From contig NC_092324.1 in assembly GCF_036785885.1 (NCBI RefSeq), positions 29,253,001 to 29,317,000 on the forward strand: a DNA stretch of 64,000 nt, given 5' to 3'. Of the stretch, positions 9,750-53,884 are shown one piece after another. Made by a program: the position numbers and the translations under genes. Position 1 is the stretch's first letter. Every line of letters starts with the position of its first letter. The notes beneath the pieces are model-generated. The model worked only from the letters and a program-made list of their open reading frames with translations. It did not search any database and was not told the DNA's origin. This DNA is from Coffea arabica (lineage: Eukaryota; Streptophyta; Magnoliopsida; Gentianales; Rubiaceae).

Positions 9750-9868
9750 TTTTTTTTCGATTAAACCCAACCCGTCGGATTATCGATTGAGTTAATATTG
9801 GATTAGGTCATATTAGGTCAATTAAAACTTATGACTCATATATGACCCAACATATTATTTGATATATA

Positions 9869-11160
9869 GAAAATCATCAATTTAGTCCTTTAACTTTTTT
9901 ATTTAAGATGATTTCATCTTCGAGCATTTTTTTAGCTTAATTTAGTCCTTAAACTTTAATACTGTAGCTAATTTGGTCCTTCTGTGGTAGCACCACCAAT
10001 AAAAGTTTCTCCGACCAAAAAACAACCAGTCAACCAAAGATAATACAAGAATTACAAGCAAAATCATACTTAGATTATAAATAAAATATTAGACTATTAA
10101 TTAGGAGAGAAAAACTGAAATTGTCTATTAAAGTGGGAAGGAAAAAGAAATTGGCAACAAAATCCCAATTATCATCAACTTTCGTCCATCTAACCCAACT
10201 CAATCACCAACCTTCTCGTCCATAAAACTTCTCCCCAAAATCATCTTCAAATTCATAAAAATTTTCAAGCATCTGCACTATCATTACACTTTTTGGATCT
10301 CCGAAACTCTAAATTATCACCTAAACTCAAGGGGCTTTTCATATGAACTGCTCAAGTGTTGAAATTTGAGGAAAATAAATGAGGGACACCAAAACTGAAT
10401 GGAAAAGAAAAGTACAGTGGAGGCAAAGGCAATTCTTGTTTGCTTGAAACTCTGAAACTTTAAATGTTTGATTGTTATGTATTTATTTAGTAGTACTATG
10501 ATAAAATATGACCCAAAAAAAACACACATTGGTTAGGTGTATTTATGCCCTCAAACTGTTTGCGAGAATACCACAATGGAAAACTAATTAATTGTTGTAC
10601 TGTGTATGTGACATATGTCTGAGCAAGCAGGGGCTACAGAGGCCATAGCTAACTCTACTAGTGCTTCCGATGAAGATCTAAAGTAGCAAAAAGTTTTTTT
10701 CTAGATTTCATATTTCTTTATTGCTTTTGGTCTTCAGTGAACTTGTATGTGTGTATTAGCATGTTATGTAATGCCAGTGAGAGAGGAAAACTCTGGCAAA
10801 CAAACATTAGAGTGGCAATCAAGTGGAGAAGAAGAACAAACCATAACACTGGTTTTTATTTATGAATAAATTTACCAATTTTTATTTTCTTCCCCAATTT
10901 AATCGAAAATCTATTTTCTCCCCTATTTAATGAAAATTACTTCTTCACTTTACCATAAGACTTTGCTTGTAATACCTATGTTACCCTTGGTTGACTAGTT
11001 GTTTTTTTGTCAGAGAAACTTTTATTGGTGGTGCTACCGTAGAAGGACCAAATCAGTTGTAGTATTAAAGTTTAAGAACTAAATTAGACTAAAAAAAAAG
11101 TTCAAGGATTAAATCGACTTAAGTAAAAATGTTGAACGACCAAATTGGCGATATTTTTTC
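9869..11160. mobile_element. Non-autonomous TIR element, Mutator-like type
   Basis: The two ends are inverted repeats of roughly 150 bases: the left starts GAAAATCATCAATTTAGTCC, the right (read in reverse) GAAAAAATATCGCCAATTTGG. Both run through 'TTTAGT(C/T)CTTAAACTTTAATACT' and 'GTAGCACCACCAATAAAAG'. The 950-base interior has no transposase. The flanking bases (TGATATATA and TTTCATATA) match only partly, so no target duplication is claimed. The terminal vocabulary resembles the element at 26066-27493. Confidence 0.6.
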
Positions 11161-11347
11161 TTTCATATATTTTGATATATAATACTCTCTCACGCATATT
11201 TGCATACATAAAATGATTTTTTTCACACATATAAATACATTTTCACATGCATAACCATATTTTCATGCACTAAAACACTTTTACACGTGCCAATACACAC
11301 TTATTTCTTAAATTCATTGGATAGAAACACATCACTTTCTCATATAC

Positions 11348-11362: not shown

Positions 11363-11510
11363 GTCCCCCGTGGATAGTTCGGTTGGGACTGGTCGTTTGT
11401 AGTTACAGTAAGGTCTCAGGTTCGACCCTCACATGCTACCGTTGTTGGGTATCTTTGGGGTTAAAGCTCTGCCCAGTCTTGGGGAATTAGCCTCCAGACC
11501 TGAAAAAAAA
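11363..11510 (+). mobile_element. tRNA-derived SINE
   Basis: The 148-bp element has a pol III box A-like segment (TAGTTCGGTTGG, about 11375) and a box B (GGTTCGACCCT, about 11430), a short unique body, and a 3' poly(A) of ten. A 14-base perfect direct repeat flanks it, the signature of L1-type retrotransposition. It sits inside the CA-rich part of the hAT-like remnant, so it is younger than that remnant. Confidence 0.85.
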
Positions 11511-13047: not shown

Positions 13048-13326
13048 GTCTTAAACAACCTTATAACATTTAGAAAACTGAAACCCCCTCCACCCAACCC
13101 AACCCACAACATAAAGAAATCAATAGAAAAGAATGTGGTTTAGCACTTAGCCTTATGATTAACCATATAGACAAGGAAAACTACTACCACGTGGGTGTGG
13201 TTGTCTGCCTATATATCATTGATGTGGTTTGAGAGAATTGGTTGATGCTGAGGTGGTTATGGCAGTCTTCTTGATGAACCAACTTGTTGCTGACCTAAGG
13301 GAGTAGTTGATATATATTATTGTAGC
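13048..13326. other. Intergenic DNA
   Basis: AT-rich single-copy-looking sequence between the hAT-like remnant and the direct repeat at 13327. I see no gene, RNA or further repeat in it. Confidence 0.5.
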
Positions 13327-13527
13327 TATTGGGCTCGATATTGCGCGAAAATTATTATTTTGTCCAATTCTTTTCTTTGCATTTTCTTCCCGTCTTTTAT
13401 TGGTATAGTTGAGACTATTTCCAGACTTTATTCTTTTTTTGGGCTATATTTGTAGTATGAGAGTTGCCGCAACCTCTGCTTGATTTTACCAAAATTCAGC
13501 TTCTTTCTCGCAAAGATCAGCAGCATA
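13327..13527 (+). repeat. Direct repeat L flanking the hAT palindrome
   Basis: About 200 bases starting TATTGGGCTCGAT recur in the same orientation at 19497-19690, on the other side of the palindrome. By eye the two copies agree at roughly three quarters of positions, with shared words such as 'TAGTATGAGAGTTGCC' and 'TCGCAAAGAT'. Identity of the segment is unknown. Confidence 0.65.
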
Positions 13528-15317
13528 TCCCTTTTAACCATATAGACTAAGAGTGGAGAACCTTTTTCACAAGGGGGTTTGGTGTACACCTAGAAATTGG
13601 ACGGGTTGGGCGGGTTGATATTGGATTTTTACTTAAATGGGTTATACCCAACCCGCCCAACTTTAAATTTGGTTAATTTTGGGTTAGGTCATATTGGGTC
13701 TTCTCAAACCCAAGACCCAAATATGACCCAATATATTAATTAATAAATTTTGATATATAAATTCTCTCAAATATATTTTGCATACAAAAATTTTTTTTCA
13801 CACACATAAACACATTTTCACACACAAACAATTTTGGTCAAAGTTGGATATAGTATGAAAAAATGGTATACCATTATTAAACAAGATCCAATCACGCCTT
13901 AATTAAACTGAAATTTGATAAGAGAGATACAATTCTCAACCAATTAGTTAAAAAATCACTATCCAATTCATTTGAAAATTCTTCAAAAAATTAACGCAAC
14001 ATTAGAACAGGTCCAATGACAACACAACCATCCATCAGTCACCAATAAAGCACATTCTAATCCTTCAACAACTCACTGAGGAAAGATAAACAACTACTCA
14101 ACACCTCAAAAATGCTAGAATTCAATGCTGAAACTAATTTGCTTTGTGGAACTTGGGCAGCATTCAAACCTAGTGATATAACAAATGGACATATACGGGA
14201 ACATCTGCAGCAAAAATAAGATGGGAATTATTAGCAACCAACAAATACACAGAAGCAACGGAAGAATTGGACACACAAAAGATAACCACATTCTAAATAA
14301 ACACACAGAACTCATGTTACCACTTTCTATGTAACTAGAAAGCACAGCAATCATATGTAGATATCCACTTGAGAACACTTCAAAAGCGTACAAGTGAAAA
14401 CAACAAATTATCCTAAATCAAACTTCCAAACCAACTAGGCACTCCACAGAGGGTAGCACATTGTTAAGACTTCGCAGTCAACAGTTCATAGTGGAGCCAA
14501 AGATCATGCTATTATGAAAGTCAAATTAGTTGCTAATACCAATCTTAGATCATTGTATCATGTTTCACTAACAAGGAGGCTTTTGGCAGGTCAAAGAATC
14601 AACATCACAAAGGTAAAAAATGCCAATAAAGCTGACATATTGCTTGGAAAAAAGACATGCACTCTGAATCAGCTTTTGTAATGAATCATTAGTGATAATA
14701 CCCAAATAACATAAATTCTAACCAGCGAATGGCCATTCACCTTTGTACAACAAGATATATAAGATCATCTTATTAAGATGAGTTAAAAACAGAGTATCAC
14801 CTGTGCGAAATTCAAATATGTCATCCTCTGTGTAACAAAATCCTCCACGTGTTGTATAACAAAACCCGGTGGCAAGACAAAGAAGTATTCTAAGACAACA
14901 AAAGTGAAACTTGAAAAATCATGACATCCCATAACCATACCCATTATACACCAGGAGGACAAATCACAACTCTAACTAAAATAATAGTAGAAAGCAATAA
15001 CAAGTATTCTAAAATATCAAGTTCACATGACATACTTACTAAGTATCAACGTTTGAAGATGCATCTTGTTCAACAATTAATCTACTAATATCAATTCCAA
15101 GATCTTGCTCCTCGTCTTCTTGTTCAACTTCAAAATCTTTATCAGGACTCTCTAAAATTTAGCAGATTTAATCAACCAATGAAGAAAATAATTAAAGAGA
15201 TCCTAAGCTACTGAAAATTAACAGTCAATGCAACTAAATATCTAATTTACCTTTACTATTATACGACCAATCTCGAGAACACAGTAGTGCCTCCACATTA
15301 TCCGGCAACATAGAAGT

Positions 15318-16290
15318 TCAAAATTTTCCAAGAATTCTCCCACCATGACTAAAAGCAAACTCGGATGCTACTGTGGTAATAGGAATACTTAAGACATCTC
15401 GAGCCATAAGTGAAAGTTCAGGATATCTAATTCTACTCTCCTTCCAATAAGTCAAAACATTCAAATCTGGTTGTTGCTTACGATCGACTAGTCGCTTCTC
15501 AAGATACAACTCCAACTCAAATTTGTTACCACTTGCCCCTTGTTGAGATTGGTAACATCAAAACCCTGCAAATATCATAAATATTGAACGTTTAAGGTTA
15601 TATAAATTGAAACAAGATACAAAAACTTATGAATCAATTTTACTCACATCCATGAGATCTCTAGTTTGTCCATCATCACCATTAAAAGTGCTCTCCATTG
15701 GTGCAGCAGTAATACCAGTATTGGTCTTAGAGTACTCTTCGAACAAACGAAACAACTTTTGTTTAATACTAAGAATCTTTTCATCCCGTGATTGAGGATC
15801 CAACACAAAAAAACAATATTCCACAAACTTGAGTTTGTAACGAGGATCCAAGATAATGGCAAATGATAAGATAACACTATAGCAGTCCCAATACTTTTGA
15901 AATTTGGTCTTCATATTAGAAGCTATTTCACTAATCAAAAAATCTGGACTATTGGCCTCTTTATTTAAGAGACATTGAATCTTCCAAACATTAGGAAAGT
16001 ATAAGTTAGCTATGGGGTATTTACTTCCCGAGAACAAAATTGTCATATCATAGAAAGGCCTCAAAAACTCTGCAATCTTATCGACCCTCTGTGATTCCTC
16101 TTCTAAAGGACACAACTTGTAGTCATCATCCATATCTTGAAGTCGAGAAAATGCATGTCTAAAAAGTAAGGCCCTCTCAAGCATCAGATAGGTAGAATTT
16201 CATCTAGTTACTATATCCTGTCGCAATTTTTTATTTGTCTCCAATGACAGTTGTTTCACCAATTCGGCAAACTTTATGACCCTACTTTCA
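15318..16290 (-). pseudogene. hAT transposase 3' half, left arm
   Basis: Reading the - strand, 16184-15627 encodes a catalytic-domain segment (VTRWNSTYLMLER-type block at the break near 16190, then LFRHAFSRLQ and ILDPRYKLKFVEY). 15515-15318 encodes the C-terminal hAT dimerisation region (YWKESRIRYPELSLMARDVL, TVASEFAFSHGGRILGKF). An intron-like gap with GT and AG ends separates them. The BED finger and first catalytic part are missing, and TGA follows GGRILGKF exactly as in the right arm. It cannot encode a transposase. Confidence 0.85.
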
Positions 16291-17764
16291 GATCCTTTCA
16301 CATCTGAATCTAATGTGTTAAAGATTTATAGAAGAGAAAAAGAAAAGGTCAAAAAAGAGCTTCAACTTGTACAAGGCCGAATTTGTTTGACATATGATCT
16401 ATGGTCTTCTATTACTAGTGATGGATACATGTCACTTACAGTACATTATGTTGATCAGAATTGGAATTTATAGAAGGAATAGTTGTGTTTCGTCATGTAC
16501 CCCTTCCTCATAATGGTCCAAATTTATCCGAGAAGCTGATTAATTTTCTAAAAGAATGGGGAATTGATAAAAAAAATTTCACCATCACTCTGGATAATGC
16601 AAAAACAATGATAGAGTGACTAGATTATTGCAAACTTATTTTTTATTTAATGGTTCTTCTATTTGTGGAAGTGAATTTCTTCATGTTCGTTGTGGTGCAC
16701 ATGTGTTGAATTTAATAGTAAAGGCCAGATTGGATGTGATTGATGAAGCAATTTATAAAATTAGAGAAAGTGTAAAGTATGTGAAAGGATTTGAAAATAG
16801 GGTCATAAAGTTTGCCGAATTGGTGAAACAACTGTCATTGGAGACAAATAAGAAATTGCGACAGGATATAGTAACTAGATGGAATTCTACCTATCTGATG
16901 CTTGAGAGGGCCTTACTTTTTAGACATGCATTTTCTCGACTTCAAGATGTGGATGATGACTACAAGTTGTGTCCTTTAGAAGAGGAATGGCAGAGGGTCG
17001 AAAAGATTGCAGAGTTTTTGAGGCCTTTCTATGACATGACACTTTTGTTCTCGGGAAGTAAATACCCCACAGCTAACTTATACTTTCCCAATGTTTGGAA
17101 GATTCAATGTCTCTTAAATAAAGAGGCCAGTAGTCCAGATTTTTTGACTAGTGAAATGGCTTCTAATATGAAGACCAAATTTCAAAAGTATTGGGACTGC
17201 TATAGTGTTATCTTATCATTTGCCATTATCTTGGATCCTCGTTACAAACTCCAGTTTGTGGAATATTGTTTTTTTGTGTTGGATCCTCAATCACGGGATG
17301 AAAAGGTTCTTAGTATTAAACAAAAGTTGTTTTGTTTGTTCGAAGAGTACTCTAAGACCAATACTGGTATTACTGATGCACCAATGGAGAGTACTTTTGA
17401 TGGTGATGATGGACAAACAAGAGATCTCATAGATGTGAGTAAAATTGATTCATATGTTTTTGTATTTTGTTTCAATTTATATAACCTTAAACGTTCAATA
17501 TTTATGATATTTGCAGGGTTTTGATGTGTACCATCTCAACAAGGGGCAAGTGGTAACAAATCTGAGTTGGAGTTGTATCTTGAGAAGCGACTAGTCGATC
17601 GTAAGCAACAACCAGATTTGAATGTTTTGACTTATTGGAAGGAGAGTAGAATTAGATATCCTAGACTTTCACTTATGACTCGAGATATCTTAAGTATTCC
17701 TATTACCACTGTAGCATCCGAGTCTGCTTTTAGTCATGGTGGGAGAATTCTTGGAAAATTTTGA
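16276..17764 (+). pseudogene. hAT transposase (RICESLEEPER-like), right arm plus spacer
   Basis: The spacer encodes KIYRREKEKVKKELQ, RICLTYDLWSSITSDGYMSL and TVHYVDQNW, typical of the hAT catalytic region, then hits stops and frame changes around 16470-16615. The right arm resumes at 16616-17430 with FLHVRCGAHVLNLIVK, VTRWNSTYLMLERAL and ILDPRYKLQFVEY. A likely intron is 17435-17516 (GTGAGT...TTGCAG). The dimerisation region at 17567-17764 contains YWKESRIRYPRLSLMTRDIL and TVASESAFSHGGRILGKF, then TGA where family members usually have Arg. The N-terminal BED finger is absent. A short acidic C-terminal exon-like piece is near 17930-17975. Confidence 0.9.
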
Positions 17765-19479
17765 ACTTCTATATTGTCGGATAATGTGGAGGCACTACTG
17801 TGTACACGAGATTGGTTGTATAATAGTGAAGGTAAATTAGATATTTAGTTGCCTTGACTATTAATTTTCAGTAGCTTAGGATCTCTTTAAGTATTTTCTT
17901 CATTGGTTGATTAAATCTGCTAAATTTTAGAGAGTCCTGATAAAGATTTTGAAGTTGAACAAGAAGACGAGGAGTAAGATCTTGGAATTGATATTAGTAG
18001 ATTAATTGCTGAACAAGATGCATCTTCAAATGTTGATACTTAGTAAGTATGTCATGTGAACTTGATATTTTAGAATACTTGTTATTGCTTTCTACTGTTA
18101 TTTTAGTTAGAGTTGTGATTTGTGCTCCTGGTGTATAATGGATATGGTCATGGAATGTCATGATTTTTCAAGTTTCACTTTTGTTGTCTTAGAATACTTC
18201 TTTGTCTTGCCACCAGGTTTTGTTATACAGCACGTGGAGGATTTTGTTACATAGAGGATGACATATTTGAATTTCGCACAAGTGATACTCTGTTTTTAAC
18301 TCATCTTAATAAGATGATCTTATATATCTTGTTGTACAAAGGTGATTGGCCTTTCGCTGGTTAGAATTTATGTTGTTTGGGTATTATCACTAGTGATTCA
18401 CTACAAAAACTGATTCAGAGTGCATGTCTTTTTCCAGGCAATATGTCAGCTTTATTGGCATTTTTTACCTTTGTGATGTTGATTCTTTGACCTGCCAAAA
18501 GCCTTGTTAGTGAAACATGATGCAATGATCTAAGATTGGTATTATCAACTAATTTGACTTTCATAATAGCATGATCTTTGGCTCCACTATGAACTGCTGA
18601 CTGCGAAATCTTGACAATGTGCTACCCTTTGTGGAGTGCCTAGTTGGTTTGTAAGATTGATTTAGGATAATTTGTTGTTTTCACTTGTACGCATTTGAAG
18701 TGTTCTCAAGTGGATATCTGCATATGATTGCTGTGCTTTCTAGTTACACAGAAAGTGGTAACATGAGTTCTATGTGTTTATTTAGAATGTGGTTGTCTTT
18801 TTTGTGTCCAATTCTTTCGTTGCTTCTGCATATTTGTTGGTTGCTAATACTTCCCATCTTATTTTTACTGCAGATGTTCCAGTATATGTCCATTTGTTAT
18901 ATCACTGGGTTTGAATGCTGCCCAAGTTCCATAAAGCAAATTAGTTTTAGCTTTGAATTCTAACATTTTGGGGGTGTTGAGTAGTTGTTTATCTTTCCTC
19001 AGTGAGTTGTTGAAGGATTAGAATGTGCTTTATTGGTGACTGGTGGATGGTTGTGTTGTCATTGGACCTGTTCTAATGTTGCGTTAATTTTTTGAAGAAT
19101 TTTCAAATTGGATAGTGATATTTGAACTAATTGGTTGAGAATTGTATCTCTCTTATCAAATTTCAGTTTAATTAAGGCGTGATTGGATCTTGTTTAATAT
19201 TGGTATACCATTTTTTCATGCTATATCCAACTTGAACCAAAATTGTTTTAGTGTGTGAAAAAAATTTTTTGTATGCAAAAATATATTTAAGAGAATTTAT
19301 GCATCAAAATTTATTAATTAATATATTTGGTCATATTTGGGTCTTTGGTTTGAAAAGACCCAATATGACCCGATCCAAAATTAACCTAATTTAAAGTTGG
19401 GCGGGTTGGGTAAAACCCATTTAAGTAAAAACCCAATATCAACCCGCTCAAAATCCGTCAAACCCGCCCAATTGCCAGG
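17765..19479 (+). mobile_element. Non-coding end of the right hAT arm
   Basis: Sub-terminal sequence downstream of the transposase fragment, mirrored by 13589-15310 in the left arm. It includes the repeated hAT terminal words 'GGTCATATTTGGGTC' and 'AACCCGCCC'. ORFs here are mirrored by chance and show no protein character. Confidence 0.75.
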
Positions 19480-19496
19480 TGTATGTAGTACCATAG

Positions 19497-19690
19497 TTGT
19501 TGGGCTCGATAATTTGTGAAAATTACCATTTTGTCCAGTTCTTATCTTCGAATTTTCTGCATGTCTTTTGTTGGTATAATTGGAACTATTTTCAAACTTT
19601 ATTCTTTTTTAGTTATATTCGTAGTATGAGAGTTGCCTCCTCTGGTCGATTTTACCGGAAATTTTCTTCATCGCAAAGATTGACAGCGTC
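19497..19690 (+). repeat. Direct repeat R flanking the hAT palindrome
   Basis: Partner of 13327-13527, 18 bases after the palindrome end, starting TTGTTGGGCTCGATAA. It is noticeably more diverged from its partner than the palindrome arms are from each other. Confidence 0.65.
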
Positions 19691-20329: not shown

Positions 20330-20597
20330 TCTGACAACGAAATGACTTGAACAGATGATAGAGGGACGATTGTGGCCAATACCATAGCCACTCCACCATA
20401 GACCACCTGCAAAAATATGTTCAAATCCAACAAATTTTACACAAAAATATTGAGCTTAAAAAGTAGATTGCTTATCTAGTATCTATTTGCAAAAACAGCC
20501 GAAGCGCCACCAATCATGCAAAAACCCGAGGAACTACCACCGCATTTTCGCTTGCAAAACACATCCTAAACCTTTAATATTTTATGCCCAAATCCTC

Positions 20598-21040
20598 GTC
20601 TTAGATAGTAGATGAAGGATCTTCCATTGTTTTTGTATGGAAATGGCTAGAGAGCTATCATTTGGGTGCAAAATTTCTTTTTCTTTTGCATTTTTTTTAG
20701 TAAGAGTTAGGGTCGTTCTCGTAAATTAGACTCATAGATGATAATCAAAATAATAGATGATTAGTTGTAAACTATTCAATTACAAATTTACTAAAACTTA
20801 TTACATATGAATTTCCCCGTCTTAGATAGTAGATGGAGGATCTTCCATTGTTTTCGTATGGAAATGGCTAGGGAGCTATCAATTGGGTGCAAAATTTCTT
20901 TTTCTTTTTTATTTTTCTGAGTAAGAGTTAGGGTTGTTCTCGTAAATTAGGCTTTTAGATGATAATCAAAATAATAGATGATTAGTTGTAAATTCTTCAA
21001 TTACAAATTTACTAAAACTTATTACATACTTATGAATTCT
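20598..21040. repeat. 221-bp tandem duplication
   Basis: Unit 1 is 20598-20818 and unit 2 is 20819-21040, both starting GTCTTAGATAGTAGATG and ending near CTAAAACTTATTACATA. A few substitutions and a small indel separate them. No coding content. Confidence 0.85.
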
Positions 21041-23571
21041 CAATCTTCTGATTAGTACATTCCTAATTTTTGTCATATAAGAACTTTTACGTGTTTAACA
21101 TTTTCGAAATACAGTGATCTTTATTAGTTTTTATGATTGCCAAACAATAGTATCAATCCACATTTTTAACTAACTTTTAGAGAGTTAAAGATAATATCTT
21201 TTTTTCTATCTCTTTCCTTGTAGAAATCTGGATAAAATTAAGTGATAATTTCATAAACCTCTTCTGAGGCTTATGACACTTAGCATCCATCTTGCTTTGA
21301 ATATTATACTTATATCCCCTATTTTTGTTTTTTTGAGTAGGAAAGCCTTATAAATAATACAGATTTTAAATAAAAATCTAAAACTATTTGCTTAGAAAAA
21401 AAAAAAGAGAAGAAGAAAAGAAACTACTACAATGTTGATAATTAAAGTGTTAGAACTAATACTGCCACTAACAACAGAATACCACTACTCTCATTCTTAT
21501 CACTCCCACAATAATCACCAACTAGCAGCCAAAAAACAAGAACAAAACGTAATAAATAACTAAATAAATTGCTGACATACTTTTTTCTTAGAAGTAAAAA
21601 TTACATTTTTCATTGATTAGGAAAAAGATTTAAATAAGAACATAGAATGCTTGAAAGTACATCAAAAAGCCTAAACCAAGCCCAAAATAAGCAAAAAAGA
21701 AACAAAATGATCCCTAAAAAACGGCATGAAAAAAGATTATAAACTAAAAGCCTGAAAAGAAGGTAACTTGTGCTTCATTTCCTTTTTCTGTAGTTCTTGT
21801 TTATTTGATATTGGAATTAAGTTTAAGTGAAAGTAGAACTAGTATGAGTATTTTGTATTGACAAGGGAGGTAAATCTAATACTCCTTTTTTCTTTTCTTT
21901 TTTTGAACTGCCTATCTTTCTTCACAGCCTTTTTGTTCTTAACTATCAGATTTAATATTCGATTCCTAAATTTTGTAACGGAATAACTCTAAGAACTGTC
22001 TTGGCTTAGCCCTAATGATTAAGTCTAATACTCAAAACAAGAGGGGGCTAGGTGAAATTATCGAAATCTCTAGAGAGGTTTATGAAACATTTCCTAAACT
22101 TAAAACATCGTACGACGGTTGCGGTAGCGATTGTTAAATTTGCAAATGTGCCAACTGAATTGCGTCTAGGTGCATTGTATCTGTTTCATTTATTTTTTAT
22201 ATGCCGGTTCAATATTAAGACTCAGACCGGTCAAGTCACGCGAGAAGTGCTTTGAATGCTACGCGAAATTAACATGCGCGAGTGCTGGAAGTTGACTTAA
22301 ATTTCCGAGTGAGAAACCGTCCAAGTTCAATGAACCTGGATTCGGTGCACTCGCCTCCAGCGTCGGCATATCATAAATGGTCATGAACATGCATCTGTTT
22401 GGAAATCATGCACCGAACAAAACACGAACACGCGTTGACATAATTTTAGCATAATTTTAAAACGTTATTCACAAGTATGATGTCCTTTATGTTATGATGT
22501 ATTAGTAATTCCCAATATATGATTTTTTCCCGCATTGTTTTCATTTGTTTTAGATTTTACATAATTTAATTATGAAAAATGGTTAAATAAAATAACCAAA
22601 ATTAGAAAAAAAAACAATTTTTGATAAAATATAAATTTTAATTTTTAACTGTTAAAAAGTTCTATATTTTGAATTTAGAATTATACGAGCATACCAAAAT
22701 ATTGGTTATTTAAAATAAAAGTCTATAATTAGTGAAAATAATTAATCAAGAGCAAGCCATTCATGTAGTACTTAATATTATTAATCTAATATTTCTCAAA
22801 TTAAATGAAATAGTATTGGTCTTTTTACTTTTGAATTTTACTTCAAATTACAAACACTACAAGAGATAAGGGAAAATATAGACTTTAAAAATTAGATTAA
22901 TAATTTCATAGTCTCTTAGCATAATCCCATAAAATAAATTAGATGAATTTAGTCAAGGTTACATAATAGTGTAAAAATAGTAGTAATTATTGGCCACCTA
23001 ATTTTGGCAAAGTGTAGAATGGTAGAGGGCAACGTTTTATTTAACTTATTTACCAATTAGTATACATTCTTGATAGGCAATTAATTTTATATGTAAACGA
23101 AGTCAATGAATGCAAAAATAACCATTTTTTAGTTATTGTCCATGAATTCCCCCGATTTGAACGTGGGTTGTAAATTGTAATTGTATGCAATCATGTATGG
23201 TGTACATAAAACACGGCATGGTACATGAATCCATGCGTCATTACATATCACATACATTATCATCACCTTTTTTTTCCTTTTCTTTTTTCTTTTTCTCTTT
23301 GTGGCCTTTTACCGGATCCACCGATTATAAGATTGCCTTCTCTGGCCTGGCGATACCCTCTCTCGAAAACCATAGAGAGAACGAGAGACAGCGGGAGAAA
23401 AAAGACTCAGCGATTCGAAGAGAAAATCATAAAAGCTCTCTCGTTCTCTAGGGTTTTCCTTTCCTGAAACCTTCGATTTCGCCTTTTTTTCCCTCTATCG
23501 GCTGATTGATTGATTGGTTGGTTAATTGATTGATTTCCGAATCCGGAATCCAAAATCGAAGTTTGAAGGGC

Positions 23572-23579
23572 TATATAAG
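23572..23579 (+). promoter_or_regulatory. TATA box of the GGCT2-like gene
   Basis: TATATAAG lies about 70 bases upstream of the proposed 5'-UTR splice donor at 23646, so transcription may start near 23600. The CT/GA-rich stretch at 23330-23480 upstream is typical of plant core-promoter neighbourhoods. No experimental start site is available. Confidence 0.5.
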
Positions 23580-23645
23580 ACTGTGAAATTCTTCAACACT
23601 GATTTCGTTGGCATTACTACCTTGGTACCTTCAATTCGTTGTTAG

Positions 23646-23922
23646 GTAAGCCTGTCTTTGTATTGAAGTCCCGCTCTTGGGACTGCAACGATGTCGTTTT
23701 TCTGTTTGGAAGAATTTCCGGTTGAGCAAAAATTTGGTCATTCCGTTGATTTTTGTTTTCCTGGAGTTTCGAATCACAAATTGCTGTACAACGAATGAAT
23801 TGTTTTTACACTTTTTAGGTGGCATTTCTCCGTTTCTGTGTTGGAATACCTGATTAAGATTTGAATTTTTTTTTGGTACCGGTGTATGCTAATATTACAA
23901 AATGGCGTGCAATTTGCTGCAG
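23646..23922 (+). other. Probable 5'-UTR intron of the GGCT2-like gene
   Basis: The donor GTAAGC is at 23646 and a pyrimidine-led acceptor TTTGCTGCAG ends at 23922, 17 bases before the start codon. Splicing would remove upstream ATGs such as 23886. This is a prediction from splice signals only. Confidence 0.5.
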
Positions 23923-23939
23923 CCGATAATTTAGAGAAG

Positions 23940-25404
23940 ATGGTGTTCTGGCTGTTTGGATATGGCTCATTGGTTTGGAATCCCGGTTTCGAATATGAAG
24001 AGAAAATAATAGGTTTCATCAAGGATTATCGCCGGGTTTTCGATCTTGGTAAGCAATTCTTCATATTCCTAATTTTTGCAAGACATATTTTGTCATTTTA
24101 TTAGTATTATCCTTAACTTTTTTTTTTTTGTCTTTTTGGGCAGCTTGCATTGACCATAGGGGCACTCCTGAGCGACCGGCAAGAACTTGCACCTTGGAAC
24201 AGATACAAGGGGCAGTTTGCGTAAGTGGGCTTTCTGTTTAATTCTTCTAGTATTGAGTGGTTTTTGATAATGGGAAAAAGCGATTGCTTGTGGAAGGGTA
24301 AAATTGAACAAGAAATGCTATAAACTGTTTGTCTGATTACTAAAATTATAAATGTTCATTGATTAATCACATATAAGGTTTGGATAAGTCAATGGTTTAT
24401 TATTTATGTTGATTTCTGTTTAAGATGAAATTCGTCAGTCAAATGAATTGAATTTAAATCACATTGTTCAGTTGCCATCTTTTTGACGTCATTTGTATTC
24501 TTTCTTGTAGTGGGGTGCTGCATATTGCTTCGGAGGAGGACCGGAGAAGGAAAAAGCAGCAATGGAGGTATGTGTTTATGATTTGGTTTTATTATTTCTT
24601 TTATCACGGAAATGCAGTGGATTTTTCTGCTCATGCTGCTTCAACTTGTGTAGTATTTACAACGAAGAGAATGCGAGTATGATCAGAAGACTCTTGTGGA
24701 CTTTTATAAGGTGAGCGTTCTGAAGAAGTATAGCTTGTAATTAATCGCACCAAATCAAGGGCATTGTGATTTGGATTTTATTTTCTCAAAATTTATTGAT
24801 TTATTTTTTAAATTCAGGAAGGAGACACTGAGGAACCAGCCCTAACTGGTGTGATAGTGTAAGTTTTAGCTGCTTTCATTTTGTCCATCATACCATTTAC
24901 TTATGTATCCCACACCTCAACCAACCACTCATGCACGAATGTGTATCTGTTTGAAGTTCTTATCTTGAGTTGTCTGGGTTTTTGTAGTTTTACATCCACC
25001 CCTGACCCTGTCTCAAATAAGTACTACCTAGGCCCTGCCCCTTTGGAAGACATGGCAAGGTGACGATCATGTAGTTTTTGCTCTGTTTATTTTACTTTTA
25101 ACACTTGCAGTGTCATTTTTTAATTACATTAATTTGTCTCATTAGGCAAATTGCAACGGCCTTTGGTCCCTGTGGCAATAACAGAGACTACCTCTTTTTA
25201 TTGGAGAAAGCCATGTTTGATATTGGCCATGAAGATGACTATGTAATAGAATTGGCAAATGAGGTGAGGAAAGTTTTGGGAGTTCTGGGCATTTGTATAC
25301 CAAAGGAGAAGAGATTGCTTGGACCTTCCCACATCCCACTCAAATCGCTAGTCTCACCAATCAATTTACGGCGGTTGCCGGAAGCTGTTGCTATGGATTC
25401 TTGA
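23940..25404 (+). CDS. GGCT2: Gamma-glutamylcyclotransferase, ChaC/GGCT2 type (7 coding exons)
   Basis: Cytosolic enzyme family that cleaves the gamma-glutamyl bond of glutathione to give 5-oxoproline and Cys-Gly, used in glutathione turnover. Exons: 23940-24048, 24144-24220, 24511-24567, 24654-24710, 24818-24858, 24988-25059, 25146-25404. All introns are GT-AG and the joined frame is open for 223 codons, close to the usual 200-227. Seen: [12 protein letters not shown] (residues 6-17, with the YGSL substrate loop), [20 protein letters not shown] (37-56), [11 protein letters not shown] (63-73), the YLxxRE block whose Glu (about 87) is the family's catalytic residue, and [16 protein letters not shown]. 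The tail after VRKVLG is variable and ends LPEAVAMDS. The start was chosen because family members begin at this Met directly before the YGSL strand. It appears intact. The exact paralogue (GGCT2;1, 2;2 or 2;3) cannot be fixed by eye. Confidence 0.93.
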
Positions 25405-26056
25405 AGTGGAAAAAAGGCGGAATTCTTTTTAACAAAATCGAGGCTGACATTTTATTGCGGAACCTCTCTAAATTATACCACTTTATTTTGAAGTTGTTGG
25501 ATCTTTTTCTAGAACTAGACTTTCTTCTGTGACTTTTAAGCGGTTGGATTGATGGATTCAAATCTGACTTAGTATTTAGAATTTTATAGTATGCGGCTTT
25601 AGAACCTAAGTACTGAATAATTGACTGGCACGTCTTGACTGTAGCTCCCGGCCAATGGAATTAATGCTGTATTTCTATTTTTCTTCCTTGCCGTTTCTTT
25701 TTCTTATGTCACACAAATCTCTATTGAAAATTTCCCATAACTTTGCTTATGAATTGATCAGGTTGTAAGTTTTTGGTGCTTCTGAAAGAAATGTTCGAAT
25801 GTTTCCTTTTAACTCATTTGGCAACTCTGGAAAAGAAATATATGAAACTCAATATTCTCTTATGTTAATGTAAAGTCAAGTACTCTCTCTCTGCTGTTAT
25901 AGCCCCCAAACTAGGTTTTGGGAGATTCCAGCATACTTGCAGGAATTGTTTAGCGACAGAACTGTGGAATTGTGCTATCCTGTTAGAAGTTTATGATTTC
26001 TTTCGTATTGACGAATGCATGGGAAGAATCAATCCTGCTAGGGGCAAGGTATACTA
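25405..26056 (+). other. 3' UTR and downstream flank of the GGCT2-like gene
   Basis: AT-rich sequence after the stop codon. Possible near-upstream polyadenylation words such as AATAAT occur around 25613. I see no other gene before the Mutator-like element. Confidence 0.4.
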
Positions 26057-26065
26057 ACTGTTTTA
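26057..26065. repeat. Left 9-bp target-site duplication of the Mutator-like element
   Basis: ACTGTTTTA, repeated exactly at 27494-27502. Confidence 0.9.
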
Positions 26066-26589
26066 GGGAAAATGATCATTTTCATCCCTAAACTTTTTTT
26101 TCCCGTCGATTTAGTCCCTAACTTTTATTTTTGGCCAATTTAATACATGAAGTTAATTTTTGGATCTAATTAAGTCATTCTACGGCGGCGCTACCACCTT
26201 TAGCTCCTAATTTAATATTAAATAAGGGCATTTTGGGAAATGCAAATTATCTCTTCTTTGCTACCAATCTCTGCCACCAACAACCCATCTCCTCCTCCTT
26301 CTCTTCTCATTCTCTTTCCATCCACCTTTGAGTTTACATTATAATTGAGAAAGTAGAAGAGGAAATCTGCAAATGTAGGTGAATGGTTCCCCAATATTTC
26401 AGCCCTTAAAGGTCTAGCTTTTTTATTTCTCTGGAGCATGACCTTGTCGCTTTAGGTCTCAACCATGCTGCTTTTTTGAAAAGGGGTTTGCAAACGTGGC
26501 TAAAATCTGCAAAGCAAATGATAATAAGTATATTACACGCAAATTACTTCAGACCAATAAGAATAAACAGCTCTGAGTAACAGGAAAGC

Positions 26590-26720
26590 AACTTTTAACA
26601 TCTTCGCTCTCCAAAAGCTTTACAACAAGGTGGCCTCTAGGCAGCAGAATACCACGATGCTCTGGATCAGAACTAGAGCCATCTGATTGTTCCTTTTGTT
26701 CAACACTATCATCAGATTGC
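26590..26720 (-). pseudogene. Captured exon-like fragment 1 in the Mutator-like element
   Basis: On the - strand an open segment reads SDDSVEQKEQSDGSSSDPEH followed by RGILLPRGHLVVKLLESEDV. It has the composition of a real protein but I do not recognise the parent gene. It could be a fortuitous ORF. Confidence 0.4.
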
Positions 26721-26834
26721 ACGAAGGAATTTTCTTATATATTCGGGTCAAATGCATCAAAGAGAACAAATTCAGCTTTGAGAGAGAGTCACTCACAATT
26801 TTGAGATTTCAAAGAGGGTTCAGCGGCAGCGGCG

Positions 26835-26939
26835 ATGCCGATTACTTTGGAAGATGGTTCAGCTGAGATTCATCTTTGGAAGTTCGCTCAAGGAAAGATG
26901 GCTTTACACGAGATGAACATCCGGCATTACACGAGGTGA
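26835..26939 (+). pseudogene. Captured exon-like fragment 2 in the Mutator-like element
   Basis: A + strand segment from ATG at 26835 reads MPITLEDGSAEIHLWKFAQG before ending at TGA. It is protein-like and of unknown parent. It overlaps the beginning of the minus-strand fragment 3. Confidence 0.35.
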
Positions 26940-27137
26940 AATTGGATTTCTAGGCATATGGTTGTTCAAACCACGCACATCCCATGAACTATTTGGTGGA
27001 AAATTAAGAGGTCGGAGATAAGGCGCTTGAACTGGTAGTGGTGGTGCAATAGAAGGCCCAACAGTTGGTGCAGATATACGTGGAATGCTTCGTGGTCCAG
27101 AATGCAGCTCTGCTTCTAGCTTTCTGTACATCCACAT
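26904..27137 (-). pseudogene. Captured exon-like fragment 3 in the Mutator-like element
   Basis: A 77-codon - strand frame beginning MWMYRKLEAELHSGPRS, then a proline-rich stretch (TVGPSIAPPLPVQAPYLRPL, NFPPNSSWDVRGLNNHMPRN). The low-complexity Pro-rich style suggests part of a plant nuclear or RNA-binding protein, but I cannot name the family. No splice context is claimed. Confidence 0.45.
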
Positions 27138-27736
27138 CTGTTCAGCAGAACTTGAAACAACATGACCCCCTGAGCATGAACAAAATGGCCATTTTCCCAG
27201 TAAAATATTTTAGTGTTTATGTTTTACTGGTGTTGCTGGTATTCCAAAATTGCCGATCATGAAGGAGGAGATGGGTTGTTGGTGGCATAGGTTGGTAACA
27301 GAGAAGAGATAATTTGCATTTCCCAAAATGCCCTTGTTTAATGTTAAATTAGGAGCTAAAGGCGGTGGCACCACCGTAGAAGGATTTAATTGGATCCGAA
27401 AATTAAATTCATGTATTAAATTGGCCAAGAATAAAAGTTAGGAACTAAATCGACGGAAAAAAAAAATTTAGGGATGAAAATGGCCATTTTCCCACTGTTT
27501 TATTCGGAGGAATGATTCCTTCTTTCATTCTTCTATCCATCGTTGTTGAATACGTGATTATCATGTGACTTTTTCAGTAACAATTTGAGAAAAACCATCA
27601 AGATACTAAATATGTTCAAAAGTTGAAAGTTGGGTATCAAATTTATTTTTGTCCAAAGTTTGGAGATTAAAACCACTCATATGTTTTGGATACCAAAACT
27701 GTATTTTTCTCTATAAAAAAAATTTGGATCAATGGC

Positions 27737-31459: not shown

Positions 31460-32339
31460 GTTCATGTACAAGTACAAGTCACATATATTTATTTAACAAG
31501 TATTATGTAATCAGGAGAGAGAGAGGATGAGGGCGATAAAGTATACTCTCGTCTCGACAAGTTCACGTATCATGTATAGTACTTGTACACATATCATTTC
31601 AAACATATAAGCATTTAACATGCACTTGACACTCACAACAAGTCAAGGGCAAAACAAGAGTGAAGCGAGAAGTCAAACTAGCTCTTTGGCGTCTTTGCGA
31701 CCACCTGAGACATGTACAATCACAATTACCTAGGTGCTCGACCAAGGCTAAGAAGAAAAACATTTTCTCGCTATCCACTTTTAAGGTCACAAGTTCGAGT
31801 CAAGTTAAAAAAGCTTTTCTAGCTAAAACGTTGGAATAATGCTCAAGAGAGCTCAAAAGTCATTTTTGATTCAAGTCGTGGTAAGTAAATCTCAATCCAA
31901 GTGAAAGTACCATTTTCACTTTCGACACGAAAATTGAGAAAAAAGGGGTAGATGGTTTTCATCTCCCAAAAGTTCAAATCTCACGTCTAAACTTTAGAAT
32001 ACATAGAGCGTTCATATATTTTTTTCCAAACTAATGGAGTCAAACATATCCAAGACTCCACTTATTTTTCTAGTAAAAGTCAAAGCTAAGGTTCTAAGGT
32101 TCAAGTATAAAACTAGTGCAATTAACCAAGAACTACTCTAGTCAAAACGCTCCCTTTTTGGAGTTCAAACTCACGGAAATCGAGGCCATAAGAATAGGGT
32201 TGAAGTCCCTAATTCGGTTATGAAGAGAAGTATCATTAATCAAGGGAGTTACATGACCAAGAAAACGCATCAAGAGAGGTTTAACCTTCGAAAATCAAGA
32301 TTTAAATGAAAGTTTAAAATTCCAAAGGAACCGTGTATT

Positions 32340-32344
32340 CAATC
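32340..32344. repeat. Left target-site duplication of LTR-D
   Basis: CAATC, repeated exactly at 35592-35596. Confidence 0.85.
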
Positions 32345-35300
32345 TATGACAGCCCCACCTTCCCCTAAGGCGAACCAAAGGGGTTAGCGGACTGCCTGCC
32401 CAACTCTCGCCAGGACTAACGGTTTGGTATAGAGCGAGCTAATACGTTCCGAAACTTACAAACGCGTGAAAACAAGTCAAAATGTCAAAATAAAAAAAAA
32501 AACCGGAGTCGACTATGAATAGTAACCGACCCGTCAGAACCCAACCAAATATCAAGCAAACATTCACATCTTGAAATTTAGCATTTACAAGCCAAAGTGG
32601 CATACAAAAGTATTCAAAAGTGGATACATGTATGGTTTGCCAAAACAAAAGAGAAATGGACCCAAAAGTACATTTAGGGTTTCAATAAATGAGCTATACA
32701 AAAGATATGTCCAACTAACTCAATTCGGCAACCAAACATCAATTGCAGTCCAAAAGTATTTATTTTCCTGTAAGGAAAACAAAAGAAATAGAGTGAGCTA
32801 ATTGCCCAGTGAGATAATACTACTCAAGCAACCAAGTTCATAGATGCATCAAACTTTTCAGTCCAATTCATCAAAAGTAAATAAAGACACACATCAATAA
32901 TGATGATAAAAGGATACGGGCGGCTCTCAAGAGCCCTTTTCCTCGTTTGCATTCTTGATCGGATCTCATTGACTCTCCGTCAATATTTAAAAGTAACCAA
33001 CCGTAGACTTCACTTTACTTCCATTCCTTCCACCTAACATTCCCCTACCGGGCCCGAACTCCAAACACTTGCACTGTAGTATTACTCGAGTATACCGGAA
33101 TCGAGAGTCTCTCATACTACAAGATTCCATATAACATTTTTCCCAAGGCTCATTAATTGTCACGACCAAGCCCTCGCCGGCTCGATTCAATCAACTACCA
33201 ATAGGGTTGAGCTCAATGATAACAATCATGGTCGTTGGATACTCGTCCAAACGACACCAAGTCATGTACTTTCATTTCATGTAACATTCCAATAACATGA
33301 GAAATAAGTGAGAGTGATAAAGTACACCCTCACTTCAATCAATATCAATGGTGCAATAACATTTAACTCATCAAGTTCAAGTGTCAAAGCCATATAGTAA
33401 CACACAAGTGAGTAGTACACTCACCAAGTTCGAAAGTGATATTTCATGCAATTCCGTCAAAGGAACGTCGTGAACCACCGTCACGCCCTAAAACACGCAA
33501 ACAAGTACAATGAGACTCGATAACGAGTCATAAACCAATGCCAAATATTCCCAAAATAGGGTTCCATAAGCACACACAAGCAATAGAGGAAACCAGAAAA
33601 ATCCGGAAATGGAGTAAGTGTTAACCCGGAAAAAAATAGTTTTTGACATCATTTTACGGTATTGGCACCAAAGGTACTACGATTATCGGATGAAGGTCCA
33701 AGACCCATCGTTTCGAAGTTAAGAGATAGGGCTACAATATTACAGAAGGTCACTCAACCCAGTTTCGAGTGTAACCAGGTCAAAAATGCAATCTACTACA
33801 CCAGAACCGCAAAAACAGATTCACAGAACGCTTTCTAGTGCAAACATCATAAATCAGCCTACCTAAGTCCAAATCCAGAAATTCCAAAGCCATCTGAAAG
33901 CTAAGAAACATGGTTACATTTCATCAGAAGACCTCAACAACCAATTCGAAAGCATTCCTGACCAAAATAATCAATTACAGAAGCAAGTCCCAAATTCGGG
34001 TAAAACCAGGGCAGCAAGGGTAATTCCATCTTTTCTCAAGCTACGCTACTCTGATTGACCTGAAATTTTGAAGGCACCTCTAAAATATCATTCCCTACAA
34101 CTTTTATGTTTTAATCCAAGGCCAATTCGGCCTCTAACTATGAGTTATAAAACCGGGCAGAATGTAGAACATTAAAACCCTAACTTTTCAATTTTCTTCC
34201 AAAACAGAAATTGCTTGCAATTAACCACTTTTTCCACCTTCTAGCTTCCTTAAATACCATTTCCAATCATCATACACAATCACATAATAATATTCATATG
34301 AAAACAGAAAAATCCCCAATAATTACAAAAGTTCACCAATTCAACCAAAAATCAAGATATAAACCATAAAATTGCATCTTATACTACCACTAATCATGGA
34401 TTAAACATCATTAGAGGGAGGAGAGGGGTCCTTCTCAACTTACCTTAACAAGACAAGAAAGAGAGCAACTAGTCCTCTTAGCTTTTCAAGTAACTCCACA
34501 AAACAACTCACAAACACTCCCTTAATGTTTTCTATGGAACAAAAACAAGAGTAGATGGTTGATTTGGTAGATTGGAGCAAGATTGAAGCCAAAATCTTGA
34601 AGAGTTTTCTTTCTTTTGTTGCTTGAGGAGGTCGGCCAAGATGAAGGAGAAAATGGTGAATTTTTGGTATTTTTTTGATTTATTTGGTCAATTGGTAAGA
34701 AAATGAATAGTGGTCATACAAGTCAAGCCAACTAAATGGTGACACTTGTCACCCTATTTTATGCAAGTCTATCACTTTGTTTCCTCTCACACTAATCCAA
34801 ATTGCAACCTCTACTTATCTCTTAACCCCAATAATTACAAAAGTTCACCAATTCAACCAAAAATCAAGATATAAACCATAAAATTGCATCTTATACTACC
34901 ACTAATCATGGATTAAACATCATTAGAGGGAGGAGAGGGGTCCTTCTCAACTTACCTTAACAAGACAAGAAAGAGAGCAACTAGTCCTCTTAGCTTTTCA
35001 AGTAACTCCACAAAACAACTCACAAACACTCCCTTAATGTTTTCTATGGAACAAAAACAAGAGTAGATGGTTGATTTGGTAGATTGGAGCAAGATTGAAG
35101 CCAAAAACTTGAAGAGTTTTCTTTCTTTTGTTGCTTGAGGAGGTCGGCCAAGATGAAGGAGAAAATGGTGAATTTTTGGTATTTTTTTGATTTATTTGGT
35201 CAATTGGTAAGAAAATGAATAGTGGTCATACAAGTCAAGCCAACTAAATGGTGACACTTGTCACCCTATTTTATGCAAGTCTATCACTTTGTTTCCTCTC

Positions 35301-35591
35301 ACACTAATCCAAATTGCAACCTCTACTTATCTCTTAACATCCGATAAATTAATTCCAGTATCCAAAACTTAACCTAGTTGGCCGAATTTTTCCGAACTTT
35401 TCGTCCTAGTGGGTCCCACGTCCGGTATACGCTCTTAATTTCTCAAAACCTATTCGATACTAGAAAAATCATCAAAAAACTATATCTGCTCCTTAAAAGT
35501 ATCTAGACTTTTTCCTAATCACGAAAATGCAGAAAACAAGCCATGAAAGATAATAAAACCTAGAAAATGGAAAAAATTACGGGTTCTCACA
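32345..35591 (-). mobile_element. LTR-D, solo long LTR nested in LTR-C
   Basis: In + coordinates it runs from TATGACAGCCCCACC to GGGTTCTCACA, 3247 bp, with perfect CAATC flanks. It is closely related to LTR-F at 61596. Both carry the hairpins GGCTC-TCAA-GAGCC (32922-32935) and ATTGAC-TCTCC-GTCAAT (32968-32984). The length includes a 512-bp internal duplication. No internal region is present, so it is a solo LTR. Confidence 0.9.
34314..35338 (-). repeat. 512-bp tandem duplication inside LTR-D
   Basis: Unit 1 is 34314-34825 and unit 2 is 34826-35338, both starting CCCCAATAATTACAAAAG and ending ACTTATCTCTTAAC. Almost no differences were noticed between them, so the duplication is recent. LTR-F contains the start of the same segment. 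Confidence 0.9.
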
Positions 35592-43434: not shown

Positions 43435-43878
43435 CATAGTCCATCCAGACAGAAAGCATATGAAAAAAGAAAATTTTTGCTCCATGGCCAGCTAAAAAAA
43501 TAAAAAAGGAAGACAGACTCAGAAGCGTGGGAAAAGTCAATGCCCCAAGCGTCATTAAGAGCTTTAGAGGCCGAATGCATAACACGAAAAAAATAAAAGT
43601 GAAATGCTTTGGAATGAACAAAAGAGGAGCAACGCAAAAAAAAAGGCATGCAAAACATAGTCCATCCAGACAGAAAGCATATGAAAAAAGAAAATTTTTG
43701 CTCCATGGCCAGCTAAAAAAATAAAAAAGGAAGACAGACTCAGAAGCGTGGGAAAAGTCAATGCCCCAAGCGTCATTAAGAGCTTTAGAGGCCGAATGCA
43801 TAACACGAAAAAAATAAAAGTGAAATGCTTTGGAATGAACAAAAGAGGAGCAACGCAAAAAAAAAAGGCATGCAAAAC
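43435..43878 (+). repeat. 221-bp tandem duplication
   Basis: Unit 1 is 43435-43655 and unit 2 is 43656-43878, starting CATAGTCCATCCAGACAG and ending GGCATGCAAAA. They are identical apart from A-run length, so the duplication is recent. It lies upstream of the CRK exon. The long reverse-strand reading frames here are products of the A-rich repeat. Confidence 0.9.
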
Positions 43879-44000
43879 ATAATACCTAGAGATAGGCAAA
43901 AAAAAAAAAACAAATTAAATGCATGAGTCAAAAATTATCTAAAGAAGCAGATCCCTAGGTTTAAGGATTGGACTAAACGACAACATAACAAGAACAGAGA

Positions 44001-45014: not shown

Positions 45015-45030
45015 TGTGAGAACCTTGAAC

Positions 45031-45061
<31 letters not shown>

Positions 45062-48000: not shown

Positions 48001-48109
48001 TTGCAATTGTTGACTGGAGCGTGGACTCGTCAACTAATCTACCAAGCAAGGGAGTGTACCACACCTTAGGGTGGGAGGGCCTCTTATCCTGACTTGGTAA
48101 AAAACGTGT

Positions 48110-48224
48110 TGTGACGTCGTTGGGTGAATCCCTTGACTAGTTTATAATTGTGACGTCGTTGGATGAATCCCTCGACTAGTTTATAATGTGACGTCGTTGG
48201 GTGAATCCCTCGACTAGTTTACAA
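48110..48224 (+). repeat. Three-copy 38/39-bp tandem repeat in LTR-E
   Basis: TGTGACGTCGTTGGGTGAAT(...)GACTAGTTTATAAT is repeated at 48110, 48149 and 48187. The 3' LTR has the same array at about 56968-57082, so it predates the insertion. Confidence 0.88.
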
Positions 48225-48342
48225 AAAGGTATACTCGAGTAATACCAAACTCTCTCGTGAGAAGAACGGGTCCGGTGGGAGTAAGTTGGTTGGAGCGTGT
48301 TAAGGAAAAATAATGAATCTACATGGACCTTAGATAGTGAGA

Positions 48343-48405
48343 GTTGACGGAGGGTCAACTACGATTAATTTTGATCAAGCTTGTGGAAAATGGCTCCTGA
48401 GAGCC
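48343..48405 (+). promoter_or_regulatory. Paired hairpins in LTR-E 5' LTR
   Basis: Hairpin 1 is GTTGAC-GGAGG-GTCAAC at 48343-48359 and hairpin 2 is GGCTC-CTGA-GAGCC at 48392-48405. The 3' LTR has the same pair at 57201-57217 and 57250-57263. Compared with LTR-A, -D and -F, the stems differ by paired substitutions while loop bases are largely kept. Confidence 0.5.
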
Positions 48406-48607
48406 CTGTATCCTACCCTGTGCTGTTATACGCTTTTCTACTTGCTGAATTTAAGCTTGAAGTTATGATTTACTATTTGTGTTATATGATTGCATGTTTT
48501 GGGGCACCACTGAGCTTTAGCTCATCACACGATATTTGTTTTCCTTAACAGGTTTTGGCATTCGAGAGATTTGAAGTCTGCTTTGATCTTTTGTAAATGT
48601 TGTTTCG

Positions 48608-48865
48608 AAGACGAGCGTCGTCGAGAGGGCTAGGTCAGAGGCTGCTCGTGAGGAGTTAGGGAGACAGAGGTCTCGATTGACTCGAGTAGCTGAGGAGGTA
48701 CGAGATAGGAGTGCCGGTATTAGGGCCGACGCTACTATGATGATAGACGAGATCATGGGGATCATTCAGGGTACAGCTCAGGTAGGGGTTGAGGAGGATC
48801 CGGAGGAGAATTCGGAGGAGGATCCTGAGGAGAACGTTGCTCCTGGCAGCCCTGCTGAGGGTTAG
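48608..48865 (+). CDS. Extra ORF between LTR and gag in LTR-E (partial)
   Basis: An 86-codon open frame continues from the deletion junction. Its codons read RARSEAAREELGRQRSRLTR, VAEEVRDRSAGIRADATMMI, DEIMGIIQGTAQVG, then an acidic tail (EEDPEENSEEDPEENVAPGS) and a stop. The first part is rich in Arg, Glu and Ala and predicted helical or coiled-coil; the tail is Asp/Glu/Pro-rich. It is not gag and I do not recognise a named domain. Its start is lost in the deletion. Confidence 0.5.
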   Translation, partial: KTSVVERARSEAAREELGRQRSRLTRVAEEVRDRSAGIRADATMMIDEIMGIIQGTAQVGVEEDPEENSEEDPEENVAPGSPAEG

Positions 48866-49236
48866 ACTAGGCTTGCTTTGCTTGTAAATAGGTATCCAGG
48901 GTTAGTTAGGGTGACACTAGTATAGGTCATAGCATTTTGTCTAGCTAGATGGCCTACTTTTGAGGCACTATGTCCCTATTTTTGGTTTAAGGAATTGTTT
49001 GTACATATTCGTTCAACTTGTGTGCCATACTTTTGGAAGGCACCCTAAACTGTTATTTGTATGAACTTTGGAATGTGAATACATGCGTTAAGTGTTTTAT
49101 TTTCCTTTCCTTGATATTCGTGTTAATTTTACTTACAAAAGAAAATATATATATAATAATAATAATAGTAATAAGTAAGTAAATAACAATATCTTCGCTT
49201 AATGACTTCATTTATATCGATAGGCATAACTAGGCT
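48866..49236 (+). other. Untranslated leader between the extra ORF and gag
   Basis: T-rich, with a TA microsatellite and AAT/AAG repeats near 49150-49190. No coding content and no tRNA-type primer-binding site seen. Confidence 0.5.
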
Positions 49237-53840: not shown

Positions 53841-53871
53841 AAGGTGAGAATTTTGAGGACAAAATTCATTT

Positions 53872-53884
53872 AAGGGGGGGAGGA
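53872..53884 (+). promoter_or_regulatory. Polypurine tract of LTR-E
   Basis: AAGGGGGGGAGGA directly before the TGTGAG start of the 3' LTR, in the canonical place for plus-strand priming. Confidence 0.9.

Follow-up and report, generated by a model that had tools for sequence, protein, structure and literature searches.

The stretch of DNA analysed here (the window) comprises 64,000 nucleotides of the Coffea arabica genome (NCBI RefSeq assembly GCF_036785885.1, contig NC_092324.1, positions 29,253,001 to 29,317,000 of the forward strand) and contains a large palindrome derived from a hAT transposon, for which an original prediction from the sequence had proposed a role as hairpin-RNA silencer. 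Positions are those of the window. BLAST located the arms at 13606-16303 and 16779-19451, in inverted orientation and with 94.9% identity, and global alignment stretched them to 13589-16303 and 16779-19479, with 2572 of 2689 aligned bases identical (95.6%), 117 substitutions, and six indels of 1, 3, 4, 18, 1 and 11 bases. The predicted layout of arms of about 2.7 kb, placed head to head around a spacer of about 0.5 kb (16304-16778, 475 bases), was thus confirmed by both methods, and a chance origin of the inverted arms is out of the question. The predicted extent, 13589 to 19479, was corrected to 13585 and 19483 on the basis of the termini of other family copies, which corresponds to 29,266,585-29,272,483 of the contig. 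Arm divergence amounts to a Kimura two-parameter (K2P) distance of 0.045; per step of 250 alignment columns, counted from the spacer outward, it is 3.2-4.8% in the first eight steps, followed by 6.0, 3.9 and 7.9%.

The left arm (13585-16303, minus strand) is a hAT 3' fragment in reverse orientation, comprising part of the RNase-H region, the hATC region and the 3' untranslated part, and ends at 13585 with the 3' terminus TACACCTAG (minus strand), as defined by family copies. It carries, in reverse, a transposase remnant with the PF14372 RNase-H stretch (15627-16184, minus strand, E 4.9e-30) and a remnant of the hATC dimerisation domain PF05699 (15321-15557, minus strand, E 7.8e-20). The single-copy spacer (16304-16778, plus strand) lies upstream of the right arm and holds transposase coding sequence with a broken reading frame, colinear with ordinary copies of the family, and the right arm (16779-19483, plus strand) is the 3' part of a truncated element terminating in the 3' terminus CCAGGTGTA. 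Read in plus direction, spacer and right arm yield a broken transposase, with the motifs LTYDLWSS and ITLDNA in two frames of the spacer, followed by a 308-codon open frame that includes the PF14372 RNase-H stretch (16598-17524, plus strand; E 8.1e-30 for 16616-17521) and a PF05699 hATC remnant (17525-17761, plus strand, E 2.9e-20). The PF05699 and PF14372 matches place both arms in the hAT superfamily. A Pfam scan of spacer pieces gave no match; the first two catalytic aspartates of hAT transposases are taken to fall in LTYDLWSS and ITLDNA. As these two stretches lie in the single-copy spacer, the arms presumably lack a whole catalytic region, so that the prediction of a catalytic and dimerisation region in each arm holds for PF14372 and hATC, and fails for LTYDLWSS and ITLDNA. 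Since spacer and right arm run colinearly with ordinary copies (query positions 2-1907 align to the copy L011 as a single piece), the locus can be described as one 5'-truncated element with an inverted partner; of the gene, the palindrome lacks the BED domain part.

Relatives were searched in the same genome (1.198 Gb in 131 contigs, with the window on contig 15), as had been proposed together with the prediction, using spacer plus right arm as the query and scoring 40 of 592 candidates, so that all counts are lower bounds. At least 66 match rows were obtained, falling into at least 36 places (15-kb clusters), and 20 of the 36 were fetched for comparison. The family consists of hAT elements of the BED/RNase-H/hATC type, about 4.7 kb long, in which the 5' end can be told from the 3' end; the terminal inverted repeats (TIRs) measure 14 bp and the target duplications 8 bp. 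Its two ends have their first 14 bases in common and then differ; in ordinary copies the 5' end reads TAGACCTGGCAATTATA or close and the 3' end CCCGCCCAATTGCCAGGTNTA or close, and both long and short 3' ends are present. Of the 20 fetched places, 13 have a 3' end that matches or nearly matches the form TTGCCAGGTNTA; one of these is a second palindrome on contig 16. In seven of the other 12, the ordinary loci with a 3' end identified by pattern, the octamer after the 3' end recurs, with at most one mismatch, before the 5' end; the remaining five yielded no matching 5' end. L011, the one ordinary copy tested, spans about 4.7 kb from terminus to terminus and contains a frame of 543 codons with a BED finger and PF14372. 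Over a common 1.3 kb, identity of the window arms to L011, L012 and L013 is 95.3-96.4%. Searches of viral contigs and of bacterial and archaeal contigs, either of which may omit the window's own genome, gave no relatives, a PDB sequence search up to E 1 gave no match, and neither an Rfam family at gathering score nor a tRNA was found.

Although the palindrome has the same type of 3' terminus as the ordinary copies, it differs from them in its overall build: an ordinary copy has a 5' end opposite a 3' end, with 8-bp target duplications where both ends were found, whereas the palindrome ends in the 3' type on either side and has no 5' end. Its flanking octamers also differ, being GTTTGGTG on the left and TGTAGTAC on the right (TATAGTAC on the right of the contig-16 copy). 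Having neither one end of each type nor matching octamers, it did not arrive as a single transposed unit with ordinary ends, unless the duplication was lost. An 8-bp duplication, GTGTACAC/GTGTATGT, considered early from the window alone, was rejected, as the family termini show that the element begins with TACACC. The fusion junction between inverted arm and truncated element (16298-16312, no strand assigned) lies inside the coding region, has at most about 3 nt of microhomology by eye, and is identical at both palindromes apart from single-base changes.

Among the matches listed, only the contig-15 and contig-16 places hold both orientations, and further palindromes may have been missed. The outer flanks of the contig-16 palindrome match those of the window in 302 of 313 aligned columns on the left and 864 of 911 on the right; the match continues, with inserts, to about 28.2 kb of the window, while on the left, in the part fetched, homology extends no further than 13277. 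Used as a query, the right flank matched only the contig-15 and contig-16 loci, with the flanking repeats in each. Given these homologous outer flanks, the contig-16 palindrome is a duplicated locus. Two pairs of ordinary insertions with shared octamers, L016/L019 and L017/L020, differ by 2.8 and 3.3% over 1.3 kb; over the same 1.3 kb, the left arms of contigs 15 and 16 differ by 3.4% and the right arms by 3.5%. The similar divergence of these pairs suggests, without proving, that the locus was copied by whole-genome duplication. The stretch 20376-26065 is less diverged from contig 16 (97.8 and 98.6% identity), which would not be expected if all of the region had one date, unless the mutation rate of the element is higher.

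Two further observations were made in the comparison of the loci. At the contig-16 locus L009 (3596-5852), a 565-bp unit comprising the spacer and the first part of an arm occurs in four head-to-tail copies with about 99% identity, a recent loop expansion in that palindrome. In the window, a 1.4-kb element with 231-bp inverted ends (91%) occupies 26066-27493 and is absent at the matching contig-16 place, where the two flanking matches overlap by 9 bases; the element looks MULE-like (Mutator-like element), and contig 16 resembles an empty site with a 9-bp target duplication, so that the insertion would have followed the duplication of the locus.

At sites compared across the four arms of the two loci, 43 split left arms from right arms, six split by locus and three cross, from which it follows that the palindrome predates the locus duplication and that no homogenisation of its arms has taken place afterwards. 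Of changes private to one arm, the window arms have 35 and 29; the contig-16 arms have 49 and 48, a roughly 1.5-fold higher load. Commonly used plant rates are 6.5e-9 to 1.3e-8 per site per year, at which the arm divergence corresponds to an age of roughly 2-3.5 million years, or a lower one if methylated cytosines have raised the number of differences. In trees, the four arms form one clade, with support of 85/81 for the coding part (16 rows, for which both limits were found) and 98/94 and 98/95 for full arms (10 and 8 rows, respectively; L016 to L021 were omitted, as their 3' part aligns piecemeal). Approximately unbiased (AU) tests on full arms, rerun without L013 and L014, rejected moving the left or the right arms to L011 plus L012 (p 0.011 and 0.013). 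Two AU tests grouping arms with L013, both of which had rejected that grouping, were set aside because the L013 3' part also aligns piecemeal. A TGA stop in both window arms was likewise discarded as proof that a dead element had been copied: the contig-16 left arm reads CGA and L011 also reads TGA, so that the change recurred at a CG site.

The arms carry mutations of the type expected of methylated DNA. In the window arms, without polarisation, 22 of 115 cytosines in CHG context were changed versus 47 of 763 in CHH (p 1.8e-5; H is any base except G), and the same test gave a weaker trend for a pair of long terminal repeats (LTRs) in the window (p 0.07) and none for a 2.4-kb direct repeat (p 0.76). 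Pooled over the four arms and polarised by the majority among them, C-to-T changes per majority cytosine were 12/54 in CG (0.222), 21/91 in CHG (0.231) and 37/687 in CHH (0.054). Private C-to-T changes exceeded T-to-C changes in the window left arm (16 vs 8) and in the two contig-16 arms (24 vs 5 and 28 vs 7), the latter holding most of the excess. In comparison with 12 ordinary copies, polarised by a family majority that includes the four arms and therefore biases the arm rates somewhat downward, the arms showed no difference at CG (p 0.87) or CHG (p 0.18), and lower values at CHH (Fisher p 0.012). The scars are therefore those of ordinary methylated transposons, with no excess as from self-directed RNA methylation, and the pattern points to neutral decay, as far as it can be read from the sequence.

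With moderate confidence, we regard the locus as an inert 3'-to-3' composite hAT relic, in which two sister copies were fused by a deletion. Two very closely related copies would have come to lie near one another in opposite orientation, with their 5' halves inward, as from local transposition; Ac often transposes to closely linked sites (PMC8225341). A deletion joining both copies inside the transposase gene would then have removed both 5' ends, both BED domains and the intervening DNA. The product would be a long inverted repeat around a short unique spacer, with two 3' ends facing outward and lacking a matching target duplication. Two sister insertions and one deletion would explain the exact 3' ends, the lack of a target duplication, the one junction and the close kinship of the arms. 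Subsequently, the locus would have been copied onto a second chromosome, perhaps by whole-genome duplication, and both copies would have decayed in methylated chromatin. RNA from any read-through across the palindrome would be a Dicer substrate, and nothing indicates such a role.

Several points weigh against this reading. On the coding part alone, the AU test leaves the grouping of the arms undecided (p 0.19 and 0.20), and only five positions separate the four arms from all six co-aligned copies, two of these positions having three gapped rows. The excess of C-to-T changes is uneven, the window right arm having six C-to-T versus 13 T-to-C. The DNA deleted between the supposed insertions is not visible, the label inert is taken from sequence decay alone, and the sisterhood of the arms equally fits one element copied onto itself.

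Such an inverted self-duplication in place, replacing the 5' half either by fold-back or template-switch repair of a break in one hAT copy from its own 3' half or by aberrant (alternative) transposition, is a tentative alternative whose product would be equally inert. It would account for the arms being sisters among the sampled copies, and related processes are described in three reports: microhomology-guided gap filling inside TIR elements, hAT included, in animals (PMC8277862), an inverted repeat arisen beside Ds in Arabidopsis (PMC1978519), and inverted duplications and composite insertions from sister-chromatid transposition of Ac (PMC8225341). However, copying would have had to end precisely at the 3' terminus, with a join to other flanking DNA, and gap filling between intact ends should preserve the 5' TIR and the target duplication, both of which are missing. 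Moreover, the outermost 18 bases of the arms differ at three positions (P 0.039 versus the arm average) and an 11-bp indel lies just inside them, which together hint at separate 3' ends, long and short forms of which are present among ordinary copies. A literature search, judged by titles, turned up no 3'-3' hAT palindrome, which is no claim of absence in print.

Under the original prediction, the palindrome would be transcribed and its small interfering RNAs (siRNAs) would silence active relatives in trans, as proposed for Mu killer and MuDR; judged on sequence, this Mu-killer-like role is possible but unsupported, and we consider it unlikely. The capacity for a long double-stranded RNA from a crossing transcript is present as predicted: in the computed fold of the plus strand, 2617 of 2753 pairs are arm-to-arm, forming 37 helices of at least 21 bp, the longest of 191 bp. 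Between the arms, 976 21-mers are perfectly paired, and from 8 (L027) to 588 (L011, the best) of them are unchanged in each of the 19 other fetched family loci, so that targets exist at the sequence level; the presence of the palindrome at two duplicated loci also fits a function. Against it stand the independent drift of the unhomogenised arms, mutation scars that match those of ordinary copies and are if anything lower at CHH, and the restriction of the arms to the 3' half of the element. The surroundings point the same way: of 14 open reading frames of at least 160 codons outside the palindrome, eight were run through Pfam; seven of them gave retroelement domains that passed the curated cut-off, the eighth only a weak reverse-transcriptase match that did not, and none of the eight was recognisable as a host gene.

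In the related Ac/Ds case, silencing is reportedly begun by alternative transposition, with rearranged copies linked to small RNAs (Wang et al. 2020, by title); Ac/Ds likewise belongs to the hAT superfamily, which suggests that the silencing principle exists there, but is an active system. The proposed parallel with Mu killer holds only in part. Mu killer is a MuDR derivative newly arisen in a maize line between amy4 and acm1, with silencing shown genetically; it has two TIRA ends, each half reaching 1.298 kb into mudrA with the promoter side included (PMC3440606, as for the following statements). Its carriers have antisense transcripts from a promoter inside the locus, read-through from flanking genes having been rejected as their source, which also counts against the silencer reading here, and the long hairpin was left as a possible contributor to silencing. 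Common to both loci are the same element end facing outward twice, an inverted duplication of part of the transposase gene and a potential long hairpin RNA (PMC3440606). Unlike the new, Mutator-type Mu killer with its TIRA ends, the present locus is an old hAT locus with 3' ends, known from sequence alone, and its arms lack the promoter (5') end of the transposase gene. Since the Mu killer ends are TIRA, by the start of mudrA, and those described here are 3' halves, the analogy differs at the very place where promoter-directed silencing would act.

Natural inverted repeats can be active, as the VIM4-VIM2 and PAI4-PAI1 palindromes of Arabidopsis Cvi-0 show: their read-through transcription leads to siRNAs acting in cis and trans (PMC13213937). 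These are likewise natural plant inverted repeats, but made of host genes, and come with siRNA and methylation data. About as improbable as the silencer reading, or slightly more so, is a Mu-killer-like hAT hairpin locus which became fixed ahead of the (perhaps whole-genome) duplication and still feeds siRNAs from two chromosomes against its own family; their target would be the 3' half of the transposase message, not the promoter. If siRNAs were made, the locus would be a long-lived natural silencer of known age relative to the duplication, and its duplicated sister would provide a replicate. Taken as a relic, it is still a clear example of a composite hAT of 3'-3' type for which family reference, junction and relative date are all established, and could serve as negative control in scans for hairpin loci, having a perfect-looking architecture and no evolutionary signs of function.

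Palindromes are a known failure mode of long-read assembly, but a false inverted duplication by fold-back is very unlikely because 117 substitutions and six indels separate the arms and contig 16 has the same palindrome, with the identical junction and homologous flanks.

The palindrome is bordered by a direct repeat that is not part of the element, with copy 1 at 13311-13517 (plus strand, about 80% identical to 19482-19680) and copy 2 at 19484-19680 (plus strand), beginning at the right terminus. A reading of the left flank as the start of a second copy of the flanking direct repeat was rejected, as 858 of 5000 random windows score equally. Upstream, a second, older 3' end fragment of this hAT or of a related one (9761-11261, about 76-78% identical to 13642-13835) is interrupted by a MULE-like element of about 1.3 kb with terminal inverted repeats of about 300 bp (76%). 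Near it, the stretch 11367-11480 resembles a short interspersed element (SINE) by eye, with tRNA-like box motifs and no call in the tRNA search. Two-copy tandem duplications of 215-513 bp with 93-99.8% identity are found at 34314-35338, 43435-43881, 20593-21028 and 60569-61065, and the 2.4-kb direct repeat has its copies at 32329-34716 and 61583-63984 (91% identity). The largest other feature noted is a Ty3-type LTR element at 45015-57467, with 3.6-kb LTRs that are 97.9% identical and with protease, reverse transcriptase and Tf2-type integrase-end domains.

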